From: Lachnospiraceae bacterium AC2012
GTDB taxonomy: Bacteria > Bacillota > Clostridia > Lachnospirales > Lachnospiraceae
Direction: 5' to 3'
DNA length: 64,000 nt
NCBI GenBank assembly: GCA_000702525.1
Contig: JNIN01000001.1
Coordinates: 1,870,501-1,934,500, forward strand
Position numbers and translations under genes: made by a program. Below, in pieces: positions 26,348 to 36,394 of this stretch. Under the pieces are notes generated by a model that was given only the letters and a program-made list of their open reading frames with translations, made no database searches and had not been told where the DNA came from. Numbering within the stretch: position 1 is the stretch's first letter; each line of letters begins with the position of its first letter.

Positions 26348-27139
26348 ATGATGGTTGGTTTGGAGGAGAAGATGGAACCTATTATTTGGATGAATATGTC
26401 GGGAGTATATGAATTGGAAGATTTCTATCGGCATAATCATTTTCAGTGGAAAGAAATTGATTTAAGAAGTGTAAAAAATACGAATTGCTATGTGGATGAA
26501 GAGACAAAGCAGGAAATAAGAGATATTATCGCTCCGTTGACAGAGAGAATTCACTTTATTGATTCGGGAAATTATCACTATCTGTCGCTTCTTTGGATGG
26601 AGAAGATAGAAGAGGATTTTGAATTGATTGTACTTGATGAACATCCGGATATGCAGATGCCTGCGTTTGGTAGAATTACAAGTTGTGGCGCGTGGGTGAG
26701 AGAAGCTGTTGAGACATTGCCTCATCTGAAGAAGATATATCATTTGGGAGCTGAGGAAGCACTGATGGAGGAAGTCTGGAAGGAGTGGCCAGAGGGTAGG
26801 AAGAAAATCCATGTGGTTTCTCAGGAGAATAATACGCCTGAATACTGGCAAGGAATCTGGGAAGAGACGAAGTGGAATCGTTTACCGGTATATATATCTA
26901 TTGATAAGGATGTTATGGGGAGGTCGGAATGCCCCTGTGATTGGAGTCAGGGGGTGATGAAATTTAAGGAATTGGAACATTTTCTTGCAACATTGCCAGA
27001 AGATGCTTATATATTGGGGCTGGATGTTTGTGGCGAGGAATCGGCGGATGACTTTTTTGATGCGAAGAGAAACGAAAAAATAAATTTGAAATTAGCTGGA
27101 GATATAGAGCGCGTATTTAAGCGAAAGAGGAGTAGTTAA
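26348..27139 (+). CDS. arginase/agmatinase/formiminoglutamase-like protein
   Basis: About 263 residues. It has the binuclear-metal motif residues of the ureohydrolase fold: IDSGNYHYL (~72), LDEHPDMQ (~97) and SIDKDVM (~189), and a late LGLDVCGEES. The spacing and reduced similarity suggest a divergent member, not a classical arginase. AGGGGAG precedes ATG 26348. Another start at 26372 also has a good GGAGGAG site, so the N terminus may be eight residues shorter. Confidence 0.7.
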   Translation: MMVGLEEKMEPIIWMNMSGVYELEDFYRHNHFQWKEIDLRSVKNTNCYVDEETKQEIRDIIAPLTERIHFIDSGNYHYLSLLWMEKIEEDFELIVLDEHPDMQMPAFGRITSCGAWVREAVETLPHLKKIYHLGAEEALMEEVWKEWPEGRKKIHVVSQENNTPEYWQGIWEETKWNRLPVYISIDKDVMGRSECPCDWSQGVMKFKELEHFLATLPEDAYILGLDVCGEESADDFFDAKRNEKINLKLAGDIERVFKRKRSS

Positions 27140-27172: not shown

Positions 27173-27220
27173 TTGTTTTAGAAAAGTAGAATGGTATAAT
27201 TAATTAAAAGGTTTAATTAA
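27173..27220 (+). promoter_or_regulatory. promoter and palindromic operator of the sulfoquinovose cluster
   Basis: TTGTTT, 16-base spacer and TATAAT (27195-27200) form the promoter. A perfect inverted repeat TTAATTAAA-AGG-TTTAATTAA (27200-27220) begins at the last base of the -10. An AT-rich palindrome with a short centre fits ROK-family operators, and a ROK regulator closes the cluster. Induction by an SQ-pathway sugar is inferred. Confidence 0.6.
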
Positions 27221-27269
27221 TTAAAAATCAGATGGGGGTCTGATTTTTAGAAAAAGGGGGTTTTTACAT

Positions 27270-29228
27270 TTGCGTGAGCGACTGGAGAAGATGGAGCTGA
27301 CGCTTGGGGTTGGAGAGAACCATTTCTCTATGACCAGAGGAAGCTTCAAGTACAAATCTAAGCAATCGAAGACGGTTCCGCTAAAGCGCATTGGTCGGGA
27401 ATCTATGGAACGAGGGTATCGCCTCAATTATGAGGATCCCAGGACCGAGGAGCAATTTAGCCTGGAGGTAACAGAGGAACAGGGCAGAACGAAAGTTGCC
27501 TTTGTATCCACACCGGATGGTTGGAATCGATTCGACATATCTTTTCCTGCAGATGTAGATGAGAGAATCTACGGCTGCGGGGAGACGTATTCCAAATTTA
27601 ATTTAAAAGGTGAGCGCGTTCGAATCTGGGTCGCAGAGCATCAGAACAGCAATCGGATTGGAAAGAAATTAATCAAAGAGAAGATTTTGGGAAAACATCC
27701 GAAGAAGACACTTCCCTTTGAGAAGTATGAGTCCTATTATGCGCAGCCGACCTTTGTTTCATCGAAGAAATATTACCTGCATGCGGAAGTAAAGACGTTT
27801 ACGGTGTTTGATTTTCGTGAAAAAGACCGGACGACGTTACATTTCCAGGAGCCGCCTGTTTTTTATGTGGAGGAGGCAGAGAGTTTTACGGAGCTTTCGA
27901 AGAAGTTGACGAGCCACCTTGGCAGGCAGCCGGAGTTGCCGGACTGGATTTATGATGGAGCGATTCTCGCGGTGCAGCAGGGTACGGATGTGATTGAGGA
28001 GAAGATTCGTCGGGCAGAGGATTCCGGCGTGAAAATCTGCGGAATCTGGTCACAGGACTGGTGCGGTTGCAGGAAGACCGGATTTGGCTATCAGGTGATG
28101 TGGAACTGGCAATGGGACCAGGCGCTTTATCCGAATCTTGACCAGAAGATTTTGGAGTGGAAAGCGAAGGGGATACATTTTCTGGGATATATCAATCCGT
28201 TTATTGCGATTGAGCGCGAACTCTATAAAGTGGCATCGAAGAAGGGATATTGCGTGAAGAATCGAGAGGGAAAGGATTATCTCGTGACGATTACGACGTT
28301 CCCGGCGGCGATGGTGGATTTCACGAATCCCGAGGCCTATGCCTGGTACAAGAATCTGATTAAGGAGAATATGATCGGACTGGGGATGAGTGGCTGGATG
28401 GCTGATTTTGGGGAATATCTGCCGGTGGATAGCGTGCTTTACAGTGGCGAAGATCCTTGGGAGAAGCACAACGAATGGCCAGCCATCTGGGCGAAGATGA
28501 ATCGTGAAGCGATCGAGGAGTCCGGAAAGTTGGGCGAAGTATTCTTCTTTACGAGAGCGGGATTTACCGGGACGATTCGGGATAGCTTGATGATGTGGAC
28601 GGGTGATCAGCATGTGGACTGGTCCGTGGATGATGGACTGCCGTCCGTAATCCCGGCAACACTATCTCTTGCGATGTCTGGCTATGGTATTACGCATTCG
28701 GATGTTGGGGGTTATACAACCGTAATGCACATGAGACGAAGCAAGGAATTGTTGATGCGTTGGGAAGAGATGAATGTATTCTCGCCGCTGTTTCGAAGCC
28801 ACGAGGGTAACCAGCCGGTGAATGACGTGCAATTCGATGATGACGAAGAATTGCTGGAGCAATTGGCCTTTACATCTACGATGCATGCAAATCTCAAGTG
28901 GTATCTGAAGAGTCTCGTCAAGGAAGAAGTGGAGCAGGGAACGCCGGTGATGCGGCCATTGTTTTATCACTATGATGAGCAGAGGGCTTATGAGGAGATG
29001 ACGGAATATCTCTTGGGACGAGATATCCTGGTCGCTCCGATTCTGGAGGAAGGGAAAACAGAGAGAAATGTTTACCTTCCGAAGGATCATTGGGTGCACT
29101 TGTTTAGCGGATTAGAGTATCCGGGCGGTGAAATCAGTATGGATGCGCCAATCGGGCAGCCACCGGTATTTATCCGAAAGCATAGTGCATCGTTCGAACG
29201 ACTAATGGATATTACGAAAAGTAGTTAG
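27270..29228 (+). CDS. sftG: GH31 sulfoquinovosidase (YihQ-like)
   Basis: 652 residues, no signal peptide. It aligns along its length with E. coli YihQ: YGCGETYSKF, GRQPELPDWIYDG, WMADFGEYLP (nucleophile Asp379), MMWTGDQHVDW (acid/base Asp446), THSDVGGYTT (Tyr482). Of the YihQ sulfonate site, Gln262, Gln288, Trp304 and Tyr508 are kept (Gln236, Gln262, Trp278, Tyr482 here). Arg301 is Gln275 and the preceding Lys is Tyr274. It should release SQ from sulfoquinovosyl glycerol. The start is TTG 27270 after AAAAAGGGGG; ATG 27291 is an alternative. Confidence 0.85.
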   Translation: MRERLEKMELTLGVGENHFSMTRGSFKYKSKQSKTVPLKRIGRESMERGYRLNYEDPRTEEQFSLEVTEEQGRTKVAFVSTPDGWNRFDISFPADVDERIYGCGETYSKFNLKGERVRIWVAEHQNSNRIGKKLIKEKILGKHPKKTLPFEKYESYYAQPTFVSSKKYYLHAEVKTFTVFDFREKDRTTLHFQEPPVFYVEEAESFTELSKKLTSHLGRQPELPDWIYDGAILAVQQGTDVIEEKIRRAEDSGVKICGIWSQDWCGCRKTGFGYQVMWNWQWDQALYPNLDQKILEWKAKGIHFLGYINPFIAIERELYKVASKKGYCVKNREGKDYLVTITTFPAAMVDFTNPEAYAWYKNLIKENMIGLGMSGWMADFGEYLPVDSVLYSGEDPWEKHNEWPAIWAKMNREAIEESGKLGEVFFFTRAGFTGTIRDSLMMWTGDQHVDWSVDDGLPSVIPATLSLAMSGYGITHSDVGGYTTVMHMRRSKELLMRWEEMNVFSPLFRSHEGNQPVNDVQFDDDEELLEQLAFTSTMHANLKWYLKSLVKEEVEQGTPVMRPLFYHYDEQRAYEEMTEYLLGRDILVAPILEEGKTERNVYLPKDHWVHLFSGLEYPGGEISMDAPIGQPPVFIRKHSASFERLMDITKSS

Positions 29229-29258
29229 AGGAGATGGTTTATATAAGGGGGTTTTTAC

Positions 29259-30740
29259 ATGACAGATCAGGAGATGAAAGAACGTACCAAGAAGATGAGT
29301 TCCAAGATTTTCTACGGATTTGCTGATATTTATGGGGGTGGCGCATTCGTAGTTATCAGTACGTTTTTTACTGTATTTTTAACCAAGGCACTGGGTATGC
29401 CACCGGCACTTGCAGGTACGATACCACTGATTGGTAAGGTTTGGGATGCTGTTACCGATCCGATGATGGGCAATATCGCAGATCGTACGAGATCGCGATT
29501 TGGTGCGAAGCGATTCTATATGATGCTTGGCTCCATTATTTCCGCAGTGACATTTATCCTGCTTTGGATTCCTTATACAGGAGCCGCGCAGTACGGTTTT
29601 TATGTGCTGATGTACATCCTGTTTTCTACGGGCTTTACCATCGTTATGGTTCCATACAATGGCCTGCTTCCAGAGATGGTAGATGAATACACAGAGCGCG
29701 CGAAGTTCTCCGGCGTTCGAATGGTATTTTCATCCTTTGGTGCAATTCTTGCGGGATTGCTTCCGACGTTGATGATCAAGGACAATACCGATGCAACGCA
29801 GTATTTCCGTGTGGCGATGATCTTCGGAGCCATCTTTATTGTGGTAATTCTGATTACTTTTGCAGGCACCTGGGAGAAGCAGCACGAAGCTAAGAAGATG
29901 ACGATGGGCGAGACATTCACGCAGTCCTTTACCGTTTATAAGAATCGCTCGTTCAAGTTGTTTTTATGCATTTTCGTCTTTGGACAGTGTGCAGCGGATT
30001 TTGTAACAGGTATGGCGGTTTACTATGTCGATGATGTGTTAAATGCATACGGCGGCGGCAATTTTACCATCCTGATGGGTGTGATTCTGATTGCGCAGCT
30101 GATGGGTATGATTCTCTTTGGTGTGATTATGTCAAAGACATCGAAGAAGTTCCCGATTCTTTTGGCAACACCGATTCGTGCCATTGCAACACTTGCCATG
30201 CTTGCCTTCTCTTATGAGGGCGCGAACTTCCAGATTATCCTGGGACTTTCCTTTGTGATTGGCCTTGGTATGGCAGCAACATCGACATCCATCTATGCCA
30301 TCCTTTCCGATATGGCAGATGTGGATGAATTGATTACGGGAATCAGTCGTGCAGGTACGGTATCCGGCATGGCAACGTTTATCCGTAAGATTGCAACGGG
30401 CCTCAGTTCTTTTGTAATCGGTGTGTTACTGGCCATCGTTCAGTACGATGAGACGATTGCAGAAATGGGACTGCGCCAGGCGGCTGATGTACAAGCCGGC
30501 ATTGCGCATATCTATGTCTTTTCTCAGATTGTGCTATTGATCATTACGTATATCGTGACGATTGCATTTCCAATGGGCAAGGAGGAATTCCATGTGGTGA
30601 TCAAGGAAATCGCACGTCGAAAAGGCGAGGATACATCCGTTGCAACCGAGGAAGAGAAGCGTATTTGTGAACGGGTAACAGGTTTTGCTTATGACAGACT
30701 TTGGGACAGAAAGAATGCTCTGAAGTTTAGTAATAAATAG
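29259..30740 (+). CDS. GPH-family sugar:cation symporter, probable SQ/SQ-glycoside importer
   Basis: 493 residues with twelve membrane segments. The N-terminal YGFADIYGGGAF and GKVWDAVTDPMMGNIADRTRSRFGAKR are the family hallmark (glycoside-pentoside-hexuronide symporters, including MelB and YihO). The leader AAGGGGGTTTTTAC is nearly identical to that of the GH31 gene. Its position between sulfoquinovosidase and transaldolase suggests import of SQ or sulfoquinovosyl glycerol. Confidence 0.85.
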   Translation: MTDQEMKERTKKMSSKIFYGFADIYGGGAFVVISTFFTVFLTKALGMPPALAGTIPLIGKVWDAVTDPMMGNIADRTRSRFGAKRFYMMLGSIISAVTFILLWIPYTGAAQYGFYVLMYILFSTGFTIVMVPYNGLLPEMVDEYTERAKFSGVRMVFSSFGAILAGLLPTLMIKDNTDATQYFRVAMIFGAIFIVVILITFAGTWEKQHEAKKMTMGETFTQSFTVYKNRSFKLFLCIFVFGQCAADFVTGMAVYYVDDVLNAYGGGNFTILMGVILIAQLMGMILFGVIMSKTSKKFPILLATPIRAIATLAMLAFSYEGANFQIILGLSFVIGLGMAATSTSIYAILSDMADVDELITGISRAGTVSGMATFIRKIATGLSSFVIGVLLAIVQYDETIAEMGLRQAADVQAGIAHIYVFSQIVLLIITYIVTIAFPMGKEEFHVVIKEIARRKGEDTSVATEEEKRICERVTGFAYDRLWDRKNALKFSNK

Positions 30741-30773
30741 ATTTTAAGAGATATATATTGGGAGGATTAAGAA

Positions 30774-31460
30774 ATGAAATACTTTTTAGACAGTGCAAAA
30801 TTAGACGAGATCAAGGAAGCTTATGAGACCTTTGGAATCGATGGTGTAACAACGAATCCAAAGCATATTATGTTGTCCGGAAAACCATTCTTAACAGCAA
30901 TTACAGACATTGCGAACTGGATCAAGGAAGAGGGCTTGGAAGGCTACGAAACATTTCCCGTTTCGGTAGAAATCAATCCACATCTTTTGACAGCAGAGGA
31001 AATGATTACGGAGGCGCGTAAAATCGCTGCCATCTCCTCTAATTTCGTCATCAAGATTCCAGCAACGGAAGATGGAATTGCAGCAGCAAGAAAGCTTGAG
31101 AAAGAGGGAATCCGTACGAATGTAACACTGGTATTCTCTGCAGCACAGGCGATTCTTCCAGGCAAGATTGGAGCGAAATTTGTATCTCCATTCATTGGAT
31201 GGAAGGAGCAGAATGGCGAAGATTGCAGACAGTATATCGAAGATATTGTAGATATTTATTCGAATTACGGATTCTATGGGGAGACCGAGATTATCTGCGC
31301 TGCTGTTCGTACACCGAAGCAGTTTGTGGATTGTGCATTGGCAGGCGCTGATATTGTGACTGCAGGACTGGCTGTCTATAAGGACAGCATGCATCATGCC
31401 TTTACAACGCAGGGAATCAAGACATTCCAGGATGCATGGGATCACACAGCGACAGAGTAG
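30774..31460 (+). CDS. sftT: transaldolase family, probable 6-deoxy-6-sulfofructose transaldolase
   Basis: 228 residues, the short FSA/TalC type. The N terminus MKYFLDSAKLDEIKEA and DGVTTNPK are typical. The Schiff-base Lys is Lys94 in FVIKIPATEDG, and VTLVFSAAQA follows. In the sulfo-TAL pathway this enzyme splits 6-deoxy-6-sulfofructose into 3-sulfolactaldehyde and a C3 unit passed to glyceraldehyde 3-phosphate. Assignment over fructose-6-phosphate aldolase rests on the cluster. Confidence 0.83.
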   Translation: MKYFLDSAKLDEIKEAYETFGIDGVTTNPKHIMLSGKPFLTAITDIANWIKEEGLEGYETFPVSVEINPHLLTAEEMITEARKIAAISSNFVIKIPATEDGIAAARKLEKEGIRTNVTLVFSAAQAILPGKIGAKFVSPFIGWKEQNGEDCRQYIEDIVDIYSNYGFYGETEIICAAVRTPKQFVDCALAGADIVTAGLAVYKDSMHHAFTTQGIKTFQDAWDHTATE

Positions 31461-31533
31461 GAATTTGTTTTTTGAAATAAAGAAATGATTCGGATAGAGA
31501 GAACGATAGTAGGAGAAAGAGAAGGAAAGAGAA

Positions 31534-32394
31534 ATGAAAATCGGGTTTGTAGGACTTGGTATCATGGGCGAGTCCATGTGTGAAAATATCGTAAAGAAGA
31601 ATGATGAGAAGGTCTATGTATTTGACTTTGTAGAAGAGAAGGTTGAGAAACTGGCAAGTGTAGGTGCCATTGCCTGTAAGAGTAGCCTCGAAGTGGCGAA
31701 GCAGGTAGATGTATTTATTACGATGGTTCCAAAGTCAGAGCATAGCCGTTCTGTCTATGAGGAAATCCTGTCGGCACTCGATGCGACGAAGATTTGCATC
31801 GATATGTCGACGATTGATCCGAGTGTGTCCGTTGAGATTGCAAAGAAAGTGAAGAAGACCGGCGCAGAATTTGTCGATGCACCGGTTGTGAAGAGCAAGC
31901 CGGCAGCCATTGCCGGTAAGCTTGGAATCTATGTTGGTGGTTCCGAGGAAGCCTATCAGAAGGTGAAACCTATTCTGGAGATGATGGGCGAGCATGTGAT
32001 TCGAATGGGGGATAATGGCAAGGGACTGGTTATGAAGATTTGTCATAATGCACTGGTTTCCCAGATACAGAATGGTGTCAATGAGACAGCAACACTGGCA
32101 GCAGCCAATGGCATTGATATCCTGACATTTGCAGAGGCAATCTCCTATGGTGGCGGCCAGAACTTCTATCTGGATTCCAAGAAGGAAGTCATCGACCGCT
32201 CAGATTTTACAACGGCATTCTCCGTGGAGAACATGCATAAGGATGTGCATATCTGTGCGAATTTAGCAGAGGATTGTGGATTACGTATGCCGGGTGAGCA
32301 AAATGTCATCCGTGTTTATGACGAAGCAATGAATAAAGGTTATGGAAAGGAAGATTTTAGTGCAACCATCAAGGTTGTTCGTGGGGAGTCATGA
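31534..32394 (+). CDS. beta-hydroxyacid dehydrogenase family, probable 3-sulfolactaldehyde reductase
   Basis: 286 residues. The N-terminal GFVGLGIMGESM is the NAD(P) fold. The catalytic Lys168 is in GKGLVMKICHN. In the substrate loop, ordinary family members have SGG; here it is VVKSKPAA (residues 118-125), bearing extra Lys and Ser residues that could hold a sulfonate. By context it reduces sulfolactaldehyde to 2,3-dihydroxypropane-1-sulfonate, like YihU. It ends overlapping the next start (ATGA), so translation is coupled. Confidence 0.82.
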   Translation: MKIGFVGLGIMGESMCENIVKKNDEKVYVFDFVEEKVEKLASVGAIACKSSLEVAKQVDVFITMVPKSEHSRSVYEEILSALDATKICIDMSTIDPSVSVEIAKKVKKTGAEFVDAPVVKSKPAAIAGKLGIYVGGSEEAYQKVKPILEMMGEHVIRMGDNGKGLVMKICHNALVSQIQNGVNETATLAAANGIDILTFAEAISYGGGQNFYLDSKKEVIDRSDFTTAFSVENMHKDVHICANLAEDCGLRMPGEQNVIRVYDEAMNKGYGKEDFSATIKVVRGES

Positions 32395-33065
32395 CAAAGA
32401 TACAGGAATTAAATCAAAAGAATGATGTGAATATTCATGATGTGCATTCGGATGCCTTTCGTAGTTATGGACGCGTAATCGAAGGATATGACATCGCGCC
32501 CTTGCTTTCCTATATGAGAGAGCATACGGAGATTCCAGAAACTGGAAATGTTTACGTGCCATCGGTTCCGGAGATGGAGGAATACCCGATATTTGAAGAA
32601 CTGCAGTCCGTCGTTTATGGCGGAATGCCGATACAGATGGGGTATTGCAATGGCAGGAACACAACCTATAACGGATTTGAATATCATAAGGGCAGTGAAA
32701 TCAATATAGCCGTGACGGATTTTATGTTGGTACTGGGGCATAGCTATGATATTGAAGACAATACGTATCATGCCAAGGACGCCGTTGTTTTCTATGTCCC
32801 GGAGGGTACGGTAATCGAGATGTATCAGACGACACTGCATCTGTCTCCGCTTCGTGTCTCCGATTGTGGATTCCGGGATATTGTGGTATTGCCACGGGGT
32901 ACGAATACGCCGTTAAAAGAGCGGATGGAAAATCCAGTAGATGAGGAATCCGTCCTGCTTTTGCAGACGAATAAGTGGGTGATCTGTCATCCGGACCGGG
33001 AGCCACTTGTGAAGCAAGGGGCACATACAGGAATGCTAGGAGAGAATAAGGAGCTGTATTACTAA
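32391..33065 (+). CDS. DUF4867 family protein of the SQ cluster
   Basis: 224 residues, no signal or membrane segment. I assign it to DUF4867 from IQMGYCNGRNTTYNGFEYHKGSE-like sequence and later ILLLQTNKWV. The central EYHKGSEIN and VFYVPEGTVIE suggest a cupin-like barrel with a His-containing site. It overlaps the dehydrogenase by four bases and the exporter starts one base after its stop. Tight coupling implies a role in SQ breakdown, perhaps a sugar epimerase or mutarotase-like step, but no activity is shown by the sequence. Confidence 0.7.
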   Translation: MTKIQELNQKNDVNIHDVHSDAFRSYGRVIEGYDIAPLLSYMREHTEIPETGNVYVPSVPEMEEYPIFEELQSVVYGGMPIQMGYCNGRNTTYNGFEYHKGSEINIAVTDFMLVLGHSYDIEDNTYHAKDAVVFYVPEGTVIEMYQTTLHLSPLRVSDCGFRDIVVLPRGTNTPLKERMENPVDEESVLLLQTNKWVICHPDREPLVKQGAHTGMLGENKELYY

Positions 33066-33066
33066 G

Positions 33067-33792
33067 ATGCTGGAAGAGATACTGTTCTATATTGTGATTT
33101 TGTTTTCCAATATTATGCAGGGAATCACGGGATTTGCGGGTACGATCCTGGCGATGCCGCTGTCTCTTAGGCTGGTGGGGTATCAAACCGCGGTACCGGT
33201 GCTGAATGTGCTCGGTATCCTTTCTGGAATCTATGTGTTTATGGGAAATTACAAGCAGGTAGACTGGAAGGAACTAAGAAAGATTGTCCTGATTATGGGC
33301 GCTATGATTGTGCTTGGCATTGGCCTTCGAAGGATGTTTGAAGGCGAGGGGAGACTCTTATATCTGCTTCTGGGCGTCATTGTGATTTTGATTGCATGTA
33401 ATGGCTTCTATCAGATGTTTCGTGGAAAGGATACGAGACCGCGAAAGGGACTGGAGATCCTACTGGTGGCAGCAGGTATCGTCCATGGGATGTTTGTCTG
33501 TGGCGGTCCGTTATTGATTGGCTATCTGTCGCAAAAGATCGAAGACAAGGTGAGATTTCGTGCGACCATCAGCACTATCTGGATTTTTCTGAACAGTTTT
33601 CTATTGGGAAGCCAGATTTATGAAGGAATGTGGAACGAGAAGCTCCTATGGGTGCAGATGGGTGCCGTACCATTTCTACTGTTGGGGATGTTTCTTGGGG
33701 GATGTCTCTATCGTAGAATGTCACAAAAAGTATTTATGATGATTACATATATCCTGCTGTTTCTATCCGGCATATCGCTGTTTATTAAGTGA
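33067..33792 (+). CDS. TauE/SafE family sulfonate exporter
   Basis: 241 residues with about eight membrane segments in two repeats (GITGFAGTILAMPL near residue 20; VHGMFVCGGPLL near 140). TauE/SafE proteins move sulfite or organosulfonates. Here export of dihydroxypropanesulfonate or sulfolactate is the most economical role, as fermenters excrete the C3 sulfonate. It starts one base after the DUF4867 stop. Confidence 0.83.
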   Translation: MLEEILFYIVILFSNIMQGITGFAGTILAMPLSLRLVGYQTAVPVLNVLGILSGIYVFMGNYKQVDWKELRKIVLIMGAMIVLGIGLRRMFEGEGRLLYLLLGVIVILIACNGFYQMFRGKDTRPRKGLEILLVAAGIVHGMFVCGGPLLIGYLSQKIEDKVRFRATISTIWIFLNSFLLGSQIYEGMWNEKLLWVQMGAVPFLLLGMFLGGCLYRRMSQKVFMMITYILLFLSGISLFIK

Positions 33793-33853
33793 TGCACTGC
33801 ATTGCCTGGGGAATCAATGGAAATCGTTTCAGCAGGGATTTAGGGGGAAAGAA

Positions 33854-35242
33854 ATGAAGAGGTTTCAAGTCGCATATGTGCCGGTGGGAGCGCCGACATT
33901 TCATTTAGAGAGTGCGAAGAAAGAATTTGAGCATTCGATTGCGCTGTTACAGGCAGCGTGTCAGGAGGTTATGCCGGCACAAGAGGTGGAAAGTTCGAAA
34001 ATAGAAGTGGAACTTCGTGTGCCGCAGGAAATGTTACTGTCCATCGATTTATTACAGTCGTTTTTGGAGAGTATACAGCCGGATTTGATCGTATTGCAGA
34101 ATATTACCTTTGCCAATGCAGCATTTGCGAGTGAAGTATTGCATAGATTTCGCGAAACACCGATTCTGCTTTGGACGTTGAGAGAGCCGGCGATTGATGG
34201 GGGACGCTTGCGTCTGAATTCCTTGACGGGAGCTTATTCTGCGGCAAATACGATAAAGCAGTTTCGTAGAGAACCGATCAATTATATCTTTGGAGCACCG
34301 GAGGAAGAGAAGGTGCGTGCACATGTAGAGGCGACCGTGCGTGCGGCACATCTTAGATTTCTTATGCAGGATCTCAGGATGGCTTCGATCGGACATACGC
34401 CGCAGGGATTTGGTTTTGGTCGCGCGTTAGATCAGGATTTGCTGGAGAAATTCGGTGTACGTTTGGAGTCCATCGAGGCGCGAGAGTTGATACAGTTGGC
34501 AAAATCCTATACAGATGAGGAATGCGAAGCATATCTTATCGATGCGAAAAATCGTATGACGGGATGGGAGAAGATGCCCGAGAAGAATGTGCGGGATTTT
34601 GCAAGGCTGTATAAAGCTTATGAAACATATGTGAAGGAGCACCAGATTGGCGCGTTATCCTCTCGTTGTTGGCCGGATTTCTTTACGGATTTTGGTACAC
34701 CGGTATGTGCAGTGCTTGCAATGTTGAATGATCTCGGCGTAGCAGCCAGTTGTGAGGCGGATGCCTATGGAGCACTTTCCATGTATGCCGGTATGAAATT
34801 ATCCGGATCAGCGGTATTTTTTGGCGATCCGGTATCTATGGATGAAGCGGAAAATACGATCACATTCTGGCATTGCGGAACCGCTGCTTGCTCTCTTGCG
34901 AGAGAAGATACGGGAGCTCTTGTGGGAGAGCATTGTAACCGTCATATCGGGCCGACTTGTGAATTCGGTTGCAAGCCTTCAGGCGAAGCGACAATTTTTA
35001 GAATTGGTAGAAATGCCGATGGAACGTATCGTTTCTTCCTAGCTAATGGGGAAATCCTGGATAAGCCAAAGCAGTTTTTGGGGACATCGCTTGTGGTGAA
35101 GACGCATGCGAATGCAGAAAAGATGGTTTATGAGACTGTTGAAGCAGGCTGGGAGCCGCATTTTGTGGTAATCTATAAGAACGTTCAGAAAGAGTTGGAA
35201 ATTCTGGGGAAGATGCTGAATGTGGAAATTGTAAAGTACTAG
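33854..35242 (+). CDS. sftI: L-fucose/L-arabinose isomerase-fold protein, probable SQ isomerase
   Basis: 462 residues. The middle and C-terminal parts have the isomerase-family features: SSRCWPDFFTDFGTPVCAVLAMLNDLG region (~270-295), CEADAYGALSMY with the metal-binding acids (~298-303), and a Cys/His-rich EHCNRHIGPTCEFG loop. It would convert sulfoquinovose to 6-deoxy-6-sulfofructose, the transaldolase substrate. Fold assignment is firm; the substrate follows from the cluster. Confidence 0.8.
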   Translation: MKRFQVAYVPVGAPTFHLESAKKEFEHSIALLQAACQEVMPAQEVESSKIEVELRVPQEMLLSIDLLQSFLESIQPDLIVLQNITFANAAFASEVLHRFRETPILLWTLREPAIDGGRLRLNSLTGAYSAANTIKQFRREPINYIFGAPEEEKVRAHVEATVRAAHLRFLMQDLRMASIGHTPQGFGFGRALDQDLLEKFGVRLESIEARELIQLAKSYTDEECEAYLIDAKNRMTGWEKMPEKNVRDFARLYKAYETYVKEHQIGALSSRCWPDFFTDFGTPVCAVLAMLNDLGVAASCEADAYGALSMYAGMKLSGSAVFFGDPVSMDEAENTITFWHCGTAACSLAREDTGALVGEHCNRHIGPTCEFGCKPSGEATIFRIGRNADGTYRFFLANGEILDKPKQFLGTSLVVKTHANAEKMVYETVEAGWEPHFVVIYKNVQKELEILGKMLNVEIVKY

Positions 35243-35254
35243 ATGGGAGCAAAT

Positions 35255-36394
35255 ATGAGACAGGCAGGCATGAATATGGGACGGGTGAAACAGCAGAACC
35301 GTTCCGCCATTTTGAATTATATATGTGAAGTGGGACCGGTTTCCCGCAAGGATATCGCAAGTGATATGGGGCTTACTCCAGCGGCTGTAACGCAGATTAC
35401 AACACAGCTTCTGGAGGAGGGAATCCTGGTGGAGCAGGGAACCGATCAAACGCATGATGGCGCCGGAAGACGAAAAGTCTTTTTGGATATCGATGATACC
35501 TATCAATATGTGTACGCTGTGAATATTGAAGCGGAGATAACGACGGTGGCCCTGTGTGATTTGCGTGGGAACCTGGTAGAGAAGCAGACGATGTACACAG
35601 ATCATGCGAAGGCGCCGGAACATTTCCTCGAGGATATTGCGAATAGTCTCTTAGAAATGGGACGTCGCGCGCCAGCGAAAATAGAGCGAAGAATTGCTGC
35701 GGTAACGGTTGGCATCCCGGGTCTGGTAGATGTTGAGACGGGCGTATCCATTCATGCGTATGGCGTTTGGGAAGAGGTCGTAGAGGTTTCTGATCTATTG
35801 CATAAGCAACTTGGACTGCCGGTCTTTATAGAAAATAATGTGGATGCCTTTGCGAGAGCGGAAGTGTTGTATGGCATTGGTCGTAAGCATGATAATTTCC
35901 TGTTGATTAAGTGGGGGCCGGGGGTCGGTTCTACGATTGTCATTGATAAGCAGATTTACATTGGACGCCATGGTAAGACCGCGGAGCTTGGACATCTGAT
36001 TATGGAGCGTCATGGCGAGTTTTGTAATTGTGGGCGACGAGGCTGTTTAGAGACGATGGTGTCCTATGGCGCGCTGCAGAAGATTCAGAAATTTGCGCCA
36101 GAGAAATTTGGAGAGGTTTATACAAAGTCGAAGGGCGCTGATCGGGAGAAATTCGATGATGTAATCGATATGTTTGCGAGAGCGATTGTCAATGCGACAA
36201 CGATTTTAGCACCGGATCGCATTGTATTATCCGGAAATCTGTTTCGAAGTGAGGAGATTCGAAAGCAGATGATCGAGGATTGCTTCGAATATGATCCGAA
36301 TCTTCATGCGGGCAGAATTTTATATACAGAGCTCTCTTCCTGTGAAGATTATATTGGTCCGGTGGCAGCCTATGTGCAGCAGGTGTTGTTTTAA
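35255..36394 (+). CDS. ROK family transcriptional regulator of the SQ cluster
   Basis: About 379 residues. An N-terminal winged helix (QQNRSAILNYICEVGPVSRKD, then LTPAAVTQITTQLLEEGIL) binds DNA. The ROK domain has GIPGLVDVETG, FIENNVDAFARAE, and the zinc motif CNCGRRGCLE (~254-263). GGGAG lies five bases before ATG 35255, chosen over ATG 35243, which abuts the isomerase stop. It probably represses through the palindrome at 27200-27220 and is relieved by an SQ-pathway sugar. Confidence 0.85.
   Translation: MRQAGMNMGRVKQQNRSAILNYICEVGPVSRKDIASDMGLTPAAVTQITTQLLEEGILVEQGTDQTHDGAGRRKVFLDIDDTYQYVYAVNIEAEITTVALCDLRGNLVEKQTMYTDHAKAPEHFLEDIANSLLEMGRRAPAKIERRIAAVTVGIPGLVDVETGVSIHAYGVWEEVVEVSDLLHKQLGLPVFIENNVDAFARAEVLYGIGRKHDNFLLIKWGPGVGSTIVIDKQIYIGRHGKTAELGHLIMERHGEFCNCGRRGCLETMVSYGALQKIQKFAPEKFGEVYTKSKGADREKFDDVIDMFARAIVNATTILAPDRIVLSGNLFRSEEIRKQMIEDCFEYDPNLHAGRILYTELSSCEDYIGPVAAYVQQVLF

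Follow-up and report, generated by a model that had tools for sequence, protein, structure and literature searches.

Bacterial degradation of sulfoquinovose (SQ) via the sulfofructose transaldolase (sulfo-SFT, also termed sulfo-TAL) pathway has been described to involve the proteins SftI, SftT, SftR and SftE, next to the sulfoquinovosidase (SQase) SftG and the DUF4867 protein SftX (PMC11968277, PMC8397734). Gene clusters for this pathway are known from Agathobacter rectalis/Eubacterium rectale, Clostridium symbiosum, Enterococcus gilvus, Bacillus megaterium and B. aryabhattai (PMC11968277, PMC8397734, PMC12890257); the original prediction for the locus studied here, made from its DNA, likewise regarded the pathway as already known in some Firmicutes, gut species included. 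This locus resides in a 64,000-nt stretch of contig JNIN01000001.1 of Lachnospiraceae bacterium AC2012 (the analysed stretch as a whole is referred to as the window) and comprises eight open reading frames (ORFs), all on the forward strand (27270-36394), in the order sftG, GPH symporter, sftT, sftR, sftX, TauE-type permease, sftI and ROK regulator. Like the published sulfo-SFT clusters, it contains genes for an SQase, SftT and SftX, as well as for a probable SftI, a putative SftR and a presumed exporter, with dihydroxypropanesulfonate (DHPS) as the product predicted in anaerobes.

The locus very probably represents an SQ-inducible sulfo-SFT operon. Beyond this assignment, we tentatively advance a joint proposal that appears plausible: a second class of GH31 SQases in gut and rumen Lachnospiraceae (Q type, with Gln at the position of an Arg of YihQ) would read the sulfonate without this Arg, and sftG, the first gene of the ROK-controlled sft operon, would be throttled by rare start codons (UUG in the window; AUU, AUA or AUC in many of its relatives) that are preceded by an extended Shine-Dalgarno (SD) sequence, resulting in low levels of the glycosidase relative to the rest of the pathway.

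Transaldolase and isomerase

Assignment to the sulfofructose transaldolase type, as originally proposed, is carried by the W143/A177 signature of SftT, with which the grouping of SftI with isomerases from SftT-bearing loci is in line. Positions 143 and 177 of SftT are Trp and Ala in 59 out of 59 relatives (at least 60% identity), and Arg and Ser in 18 out of 18 transaldolases (at most 46% identity); in a grouping test set beforehand, the window protein accordingly sits with the sulfofructose (SF) transaldolases and not with the ordinary ones. W143 and A177 form the sulfonate set together with R179, and the catalytic residues D6, E66 and K94 are likewise present. A W-A-R sulfonate motif of SF transaldolases is named in section 3.4 of PMC11659671. 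The best match in the PDB is the SF transaldolase of B. megaterium (BmSF-TAL).

In a phylogenetic tree, SftI groups with the isomerases of Lactobacillaceae loci having SftT and SftX, apart from distant FucI-like proteins. On the SftI model NF048012, five isomerases from SftT-bearing loci score 389.8-412.8 bits as compared to 386.8 bits for the window protein, and five more distant ones 79-267 bits, including two (L045, L085) that adjoin SF-type transaldolases; all isomerases scored lie below the cut-off of this model. The Pfam domain Fucose_iso_C was matched with 28.3 bits, just below its cut-off of 29.3. SftI has 15 residues near its N terminus (about 41-55) that are absent from six compared relatives. 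In loci of rumen Bacilli/Erysipelotrichaceae (L037, L040, L043-L046), a Q-type SQase and an SF-type transaldolase are accompanied by an isomerase that shares only about 25% identity with the SftI of the window and is perhaps another SQ isomerase.

A probable sulfoquinovosidase of the glutamine type

Q275 of SftG aligns with YihQ R301, which we take to be the sulfonate-binding Arg, and Tyr replaces YihQ K300. Aligned to the window protein, Arg occupies the R301 position in YihQ, in 8r56 (BmSQase), in 6pnr (E. rectale SftG) and in 5ohy (Agrobacterium tumefaciens SQase). In a GH31 tree of 82 rows, from which 22 of originally 104 rows (two partial SQases and other GH31 proteins) had been removed beforehand, SftG falls within a 41-row clade (SH-like approximate likelihood ratio test 100, stem 0.64) with Gln in 41 out of 41 rows. 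The 30-row clade containing YihQ has Arg throughout (30/30), and a further clade of four rows has three Arg and one Gln. The latter SQase (L148, genome G508) lies outside the Q clade, indicating that Gln arose at least twice on this tree.

Groups for the comparison of further residues were set by residue 301, hence this position itself is no test there, whereas the clade counts are. Compared without seven partial or divergent rows and without rows lacking W304 or Y508, Q and R rows differ in a loop and in the fixed changes G154 to Q125 and G260 to A234. K133 is the only Lys or Arg that is fixed in Q rows and absent from R rows. It was rejected as a compensating charge, since it lies one column from YihQ K159, which R rows invariably have and Q rows almost always lack; both may represent the same Lys, shifted. 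Retained in SftG are the catalytic Asp pair (D379, D446) as well as W278 and Y482, corresponding to YihQ W304 and Y508, and these are kept in 46 out of 46 rows; L140, on a long branch within the Q clade, has Phe for Y508. The score on the YihQ equivalog is above its cut-off (Table 1), and with an AlphaFold model of SftG (mean predicted local distance difference test score 90.8), Foldseek ranks 1-23 were all SQases (TM-score about 0.9), followed by YicI (0.75). The absence of a hydrophobic N-terminal stretch suggests that SftG is probably intracellular.

Across 397 genomes of the window's family, 28 matches above the YihQ cut-off were obtained in 25 genomes: 12 with Arg, 15 with Gln (window included) and a divergent one with Gln and F508. 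Apart from that of the window, 14 loci have Gln, and in 11 of these SftT was present in the fetched stretch, versus 8 of the 12 Arg loci (one on a contig having both types), which argues for the Q-type SQase belonging to the sulfo-SFT pathway. In similar clusters, the sole SQase is sometimes of the Q and sometimes of the R type, and both occur together in 3 of the 25 SQase-bearing family genomes, as well as in L010. On single contigs, the two types are about 6 kb apart in L010 (566-2539 and 8567-10570) and about 15 kb apart in L177 (2234 and 18833). Variants of yihQ on one long branch, that of Mariniplasma BK011_07555, have been reported to make up 64% and 47.5% of the rumen yihQ variants, depending on the assay (PMC13219744). 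A literature search, with most subscription papers outside its scope, retrieved no publication on an Arg301-to-Gln SQase variant.

Start codons of sftG

The sftG gene of the window begins with UUG, 9 nt after GGGGG. Start codons of Q-type sftG were compared in 32 loci (window included) after removal of four near-duplicate loci, with ATG, GTG or TTG preferred whenever located at SD distance: 16 genes start with AUG and two with UUG, while 14 have only AUU, AUA or AUC at this distance. None of 176 control starts shows the latter condition (SftT 0/69, SftR 0/48, SftI 0/39, GPH 0/20), 27 of them having ATG, GTG or TTG in range but no SD at the set distance. The same rule flags one out of 38 SftX starts (that of the window) and two out of 30 R-type SQases, all three of which possess ATG at the expected start. 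Among the 14 AUU/AUA/AUC loci, identity reaches 97% within two pairs and 88% within the next closest one.

Four of these loci (L019, L025, L051, L185) have no in-frame ATG, GTG or TTG from -24 to +30. In-frame ATG codons are found 15-30 nt downstream, far from the SD, in six (L006, L008, L022, L023, L175, L176) and upstream of the SD in three (L003, L004, L057), and initiation at these ATG codons is possible. Initiation at the AUU/AUA/AUC position is supported by its alignment with the AUG of other relatives.

In Staphylococcus aureus, AUU or AUA starts with extended SD sequences lower initiation (infC, cvfC1, ccpN, citZ; PMC13009471), and infC and pcnB of Escherichia coli have non-canonical start codons (PMC9410913). 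These precedents resemble the sftG relatives in having AUU or AUA behind a strong SD, once in the first gene of an operon. They differ in that sftG encodes a sugar-catabolic enzyme, that its codon varies between AUU, AUA, AUC, UUG and AUG among relatives, and that the case is known here from sequence alone; moreover, the sftG of the window itself has UUG. By analogy, rare start codons may affect expression of sftG.

Promoter and presumed operator

A consensus promoter scan of the window did not list the promoter preceding sftG, the -35 box of which matches in 3/6 bases; it was called on account of its position and the conserved palindrome, the first base of which is also the last one of the -10 box. 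Allowing two mismatches, this palindrome occurs at one place in the genome. Such rarity is by itself weak, as a reversed control pattern matched twice per strand. Its strict core was, however, found upstream of Q-type sftG in 16 out of 34 other loci (window excluded), as compared to a mean of 0.2 and a maximum of 2 for shuffles; visual inspection showed looser sites in L005, L025, L029 and L051 that escape the strict pattern. Of the 19 loci in whose cluster a ROK gene was seen, 14 have the core, versus 2 of the 15 others; the ROK list was set by hand, and several contigs end before the ROK position. The Fisher p-values of the analysis take no account of shared ancestry. No title among the literature matches listed for sulfoquinovose, ROK and operator names such a regulator.

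The leader between operator and SD contains a ten-base perfect inverted repeat around UGGGGG (27223-27248). The region 27200-27310 folds with a z-score of -4.3; on visual inspection, the hairpin did not prove to be shared by relatives.

Reductase, SftX and the predicted pathway

SftR shares 29% identity with YihU, its K168 and K120 matching YihU K171 and R123, respectively. The GPH symporter scored 192 bits on the NCBIfam gph subfamily model (cut-off 231). Roles of SftR, importer and exporter were assigned from operon context rather than from curated cut-offs. In SftX, E97, H99 and H150 are invariant in 43 out of 43 rows, and E103 is present within the EYHKGSE stretch of the window protein (checked in the window only); a 2His-2Glu metal site of DUF4867/SftX comprising E97, H99, E103 and H150 is given in PMC11968277. 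No mutarotation was detected in that study, while ring opening has been proposed in PMC9594981.

We infer every substrate, the inducer, the transport direction and the role of SftX in the following scheme. SQ or SQ-glycerol would be taken up via the GPH symporter, and SftG, probably in the cytoplasm, would free SQ. SftI would convert the latter to 6-deoxy-6-sulfofructose, with SftX possibly opening the ring or catalysing mutarotation beforehand. SftT would then transfer the dihydroxyacetone part to glyceraldehyde-3-phosphate, yielding fructose-6-phosphate for glycolysis and 3-sulfolactaldehyde (SLA), the latter being reduced to DHPS by SftR and exported by the TauE-type permease. The ROK protein would occupy the palindrome at the -10 box and be released by a sugar of the pathway.

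The 2.55-Mb genome (99.94% complete) encodes one glycyl radical enzyme of the pyruvate formate-lyase type above cut-off, namely pyruvate formate-lyase itself; HpfG and HpsG were not found in a genome search for glycyl radical enzymes. Further conversion of DHPS by HpfG or HpsG was therefore rejected, and DHPS is the expected product, which should leave the cell. Its use by sulfite-reducing neighbours, as originally envisaged, would be in keeping with published co-cultures.

Alternative interpretations

Several observations weigh against an SQase-initiated sulfo-SFT operon. SftG has no equivalent of the Arg at YihQ R301; SftI, SftR and the GPH symporter all score below their NCBIfam cut-offs. 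The best PDB match of SftR is 2-hydroxymethylglutarate dehydrogenase. The clustering of SftI with the Lactobacillaceae isomerases is seen in the tree with a node support of 94/89 (star threshold 95). An ordinary, non-sulfo sugar operon could account for several members being distantly related to common sugar enzymes. In view of the SF-transaldolase residues, the SftI clade, the SQase match and SftX, this reading has next to no probability, and it was rejected on the transaldolase residues and the trees. Nor is a kinase or aldolase of the sulfo-Embden-Meyerhof-Parnas route encoded among the eight genes, as judged from Pfam and NCBIfam, in agreement with the original prediction (YihV and YihT were not searched for genome-wide).

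A more serious, though still unlikely, possibility is that the downstream part represents the sulfo-SFT pathway while the Q-type GH31 enzyme is no classical SQase, having another or wider glycoside specificity, e.g., for another SQ aglycone or another acidic sugar. The presence of Gln in place of Arg throughout a long-stemmed clade of 41 rows, the different loop with its accompanying fixed changes (Q125, A234) and the co-occurrence of both types in some genomes would fit this reading. Conservation of both catalytic Asp and of the W304 and Y508 equivalents, the score above the YihQ cut-off, the proximity of SftT to most Q loci and the mutual replacement of Q and R types as sole SQase in similar clusters speak for SQ hydrolysis instead. 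With respect to the end product, the cell might desulfonate DHPS or convert it to 3-hydroxypropanesulfonate, or it might oxidise SLA to sulfolactate; extensions of this kind have been described in other anaerobes as well as in aerobic Bacillus (PMC11489063, PMC12890257). With pyruvate formate-lyase as the single enzyme of its kind and with none of the eight genes, to which this search was confined, encoding an aldehyde dehydrogenase, this is very improbable, and excretion of DHPS by a sulfo-SFT operon is preferred.

Operon organization and distribution

The gene list of the original prediction, from SQase to ROK regulator, was borne out by family profile searches, and its nine consecutive units are obtained if the promoter is counted alongside the eight genes. 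The ORFs, located as predicted, are separated by 30, 33, 73, -4, 1, 61 and 0 nt (Table 1) and encode, in gene order, the Pfam domains GH31, MFS_2, TAL_FSA, NAD_binding_2/11, DUF4867, TauE, Fucose_iso_C and ROK. A metagenome-assembled genome of Lachnospiraceae (L002) has the identical eight-gene order, with guaA downstream as in the window, which argues against a chance arrangement.

Table 1 Features of the sft locus (positions within the window)
Feature	Position	Strand	Basis
Promoter	27173..27200	+	-35 TTGTTT 27173-27178, 16 nt, -10 TATAAT 27195-27200; read off sequence
Palindromic operator TTAATTAAAAGGTTTAATTAATTAA, presumed ROK site	27200..27224	+	Recurrence upstream of sftG in relatives
SD GGGGG (27256-27260) and UUG start codon (27270-27272) of sftG	27256..27272	+	
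sftG, GH31 sulfoquinovosidase, Q275 type	27270..29228	+	NF007746 791 bits (cut-off 553), phylogeny, fold
GPH/MFS_2 symporter, presumed SQ or SQ-glycerol importer	29259..30740	+	PF13347 227 bits; function from context
sftT, sulfofructose transaldolase	30774..31460	+	Best PDB match BmSF-TAL, E 3e-87; W143, A177, R179, D6, E66, K94
sftR, putative sulfolactaldehyde reductase, HIBADH family	31534..32394	+	NF012005 159 bits (SLA reductase cut-off 348); substrate from context
sftX, DUF4867 cupin	32391..33065	+	PF16161 256.7 bits; only PDB match 9gyy (B. megaterium DUF4867 structure)
TauE/SafE-type permease, presumed DHPS exporter	33067..33792	+	PF01925 83 bits; function from context
sftI, probable sulfoquinovose isomerase	33854..35242	+	NF048012 386.8 bits (cut-off 700), only NCBIfam match; tree
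ROK-family regulator	35243..36394	+	PF00480 137 bits; winged-helix stretch at N terminus

SftT of at least 60% identity was detected in three of 61 genomes searched (own included); besides that of the window, these are one further genome from the family and one from the order. In a genome of the same genus (G003, 78% complete; GuaA 97% identical over 365 residues), only 37 nt separate the parts matching both flanks of a 10,239-nt stretch of the window that contains the operon and an arginase-like gene. Neither SftI nor SQase was found elsewhere in this 78% complete genome, and its one SftT match has 40% identity. The operon thus appears to be an accessory segment, gained here or lost in G003. 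Foreign origin was not adopted on the basis of composition, as the operon, with a GC content of 0.465, barely surpasses the maximum among the 9-kb tiles of the window (0.463; median 0.429), a weak signal. The arginase-fold gene (PF00491, weak; 26348-27139, forward strand) is located directly upstream of the operon. Out of 84 loci with matches, six have a homologue (38-45%), and in each of these it precedes SftG on the same strand.

Relation to known systems

Should the Q-type enzyme be an active SQase, it is too restrictive to define sulfonate recognition by GH31 SQases through an Arg, considering that Gln is found in 15 of the 28 family matches; should it not be one, part of the predicted SQ capacity of these bacteria is mis-assigned. 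The start-codon pattern lends itself to an inexpensive test of whether a metabolic operon can be throttled through a start codon, and, given the palindrome, the ROK protein is a candidate sensor of sulfosugars.

Overall, the operon is a sound additional member of the published pathway, with the glycosidase variant and the start-codon pattern as its unusual traits. With YihQ, E. rectale SftG, BmSQase and the A. tumefaciens SQase, the window enzyme shares the fold, the catalytic Asp pair and the W304/Y508 equivalents, but unlike all of these it has Gln for R301, and unlike YihQ also Tyr for K300. The E. rectale cluster accordingly carries an SQase of the R type, in contrast to the Q type found here. 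Gene order differs from that of Oribacterium and Faecalibacterium loci, in which SftG follows SftX, and, unlike the published sulfo-SFT clusters, that of the window possesses a ROK regulator with a palindromic operator.

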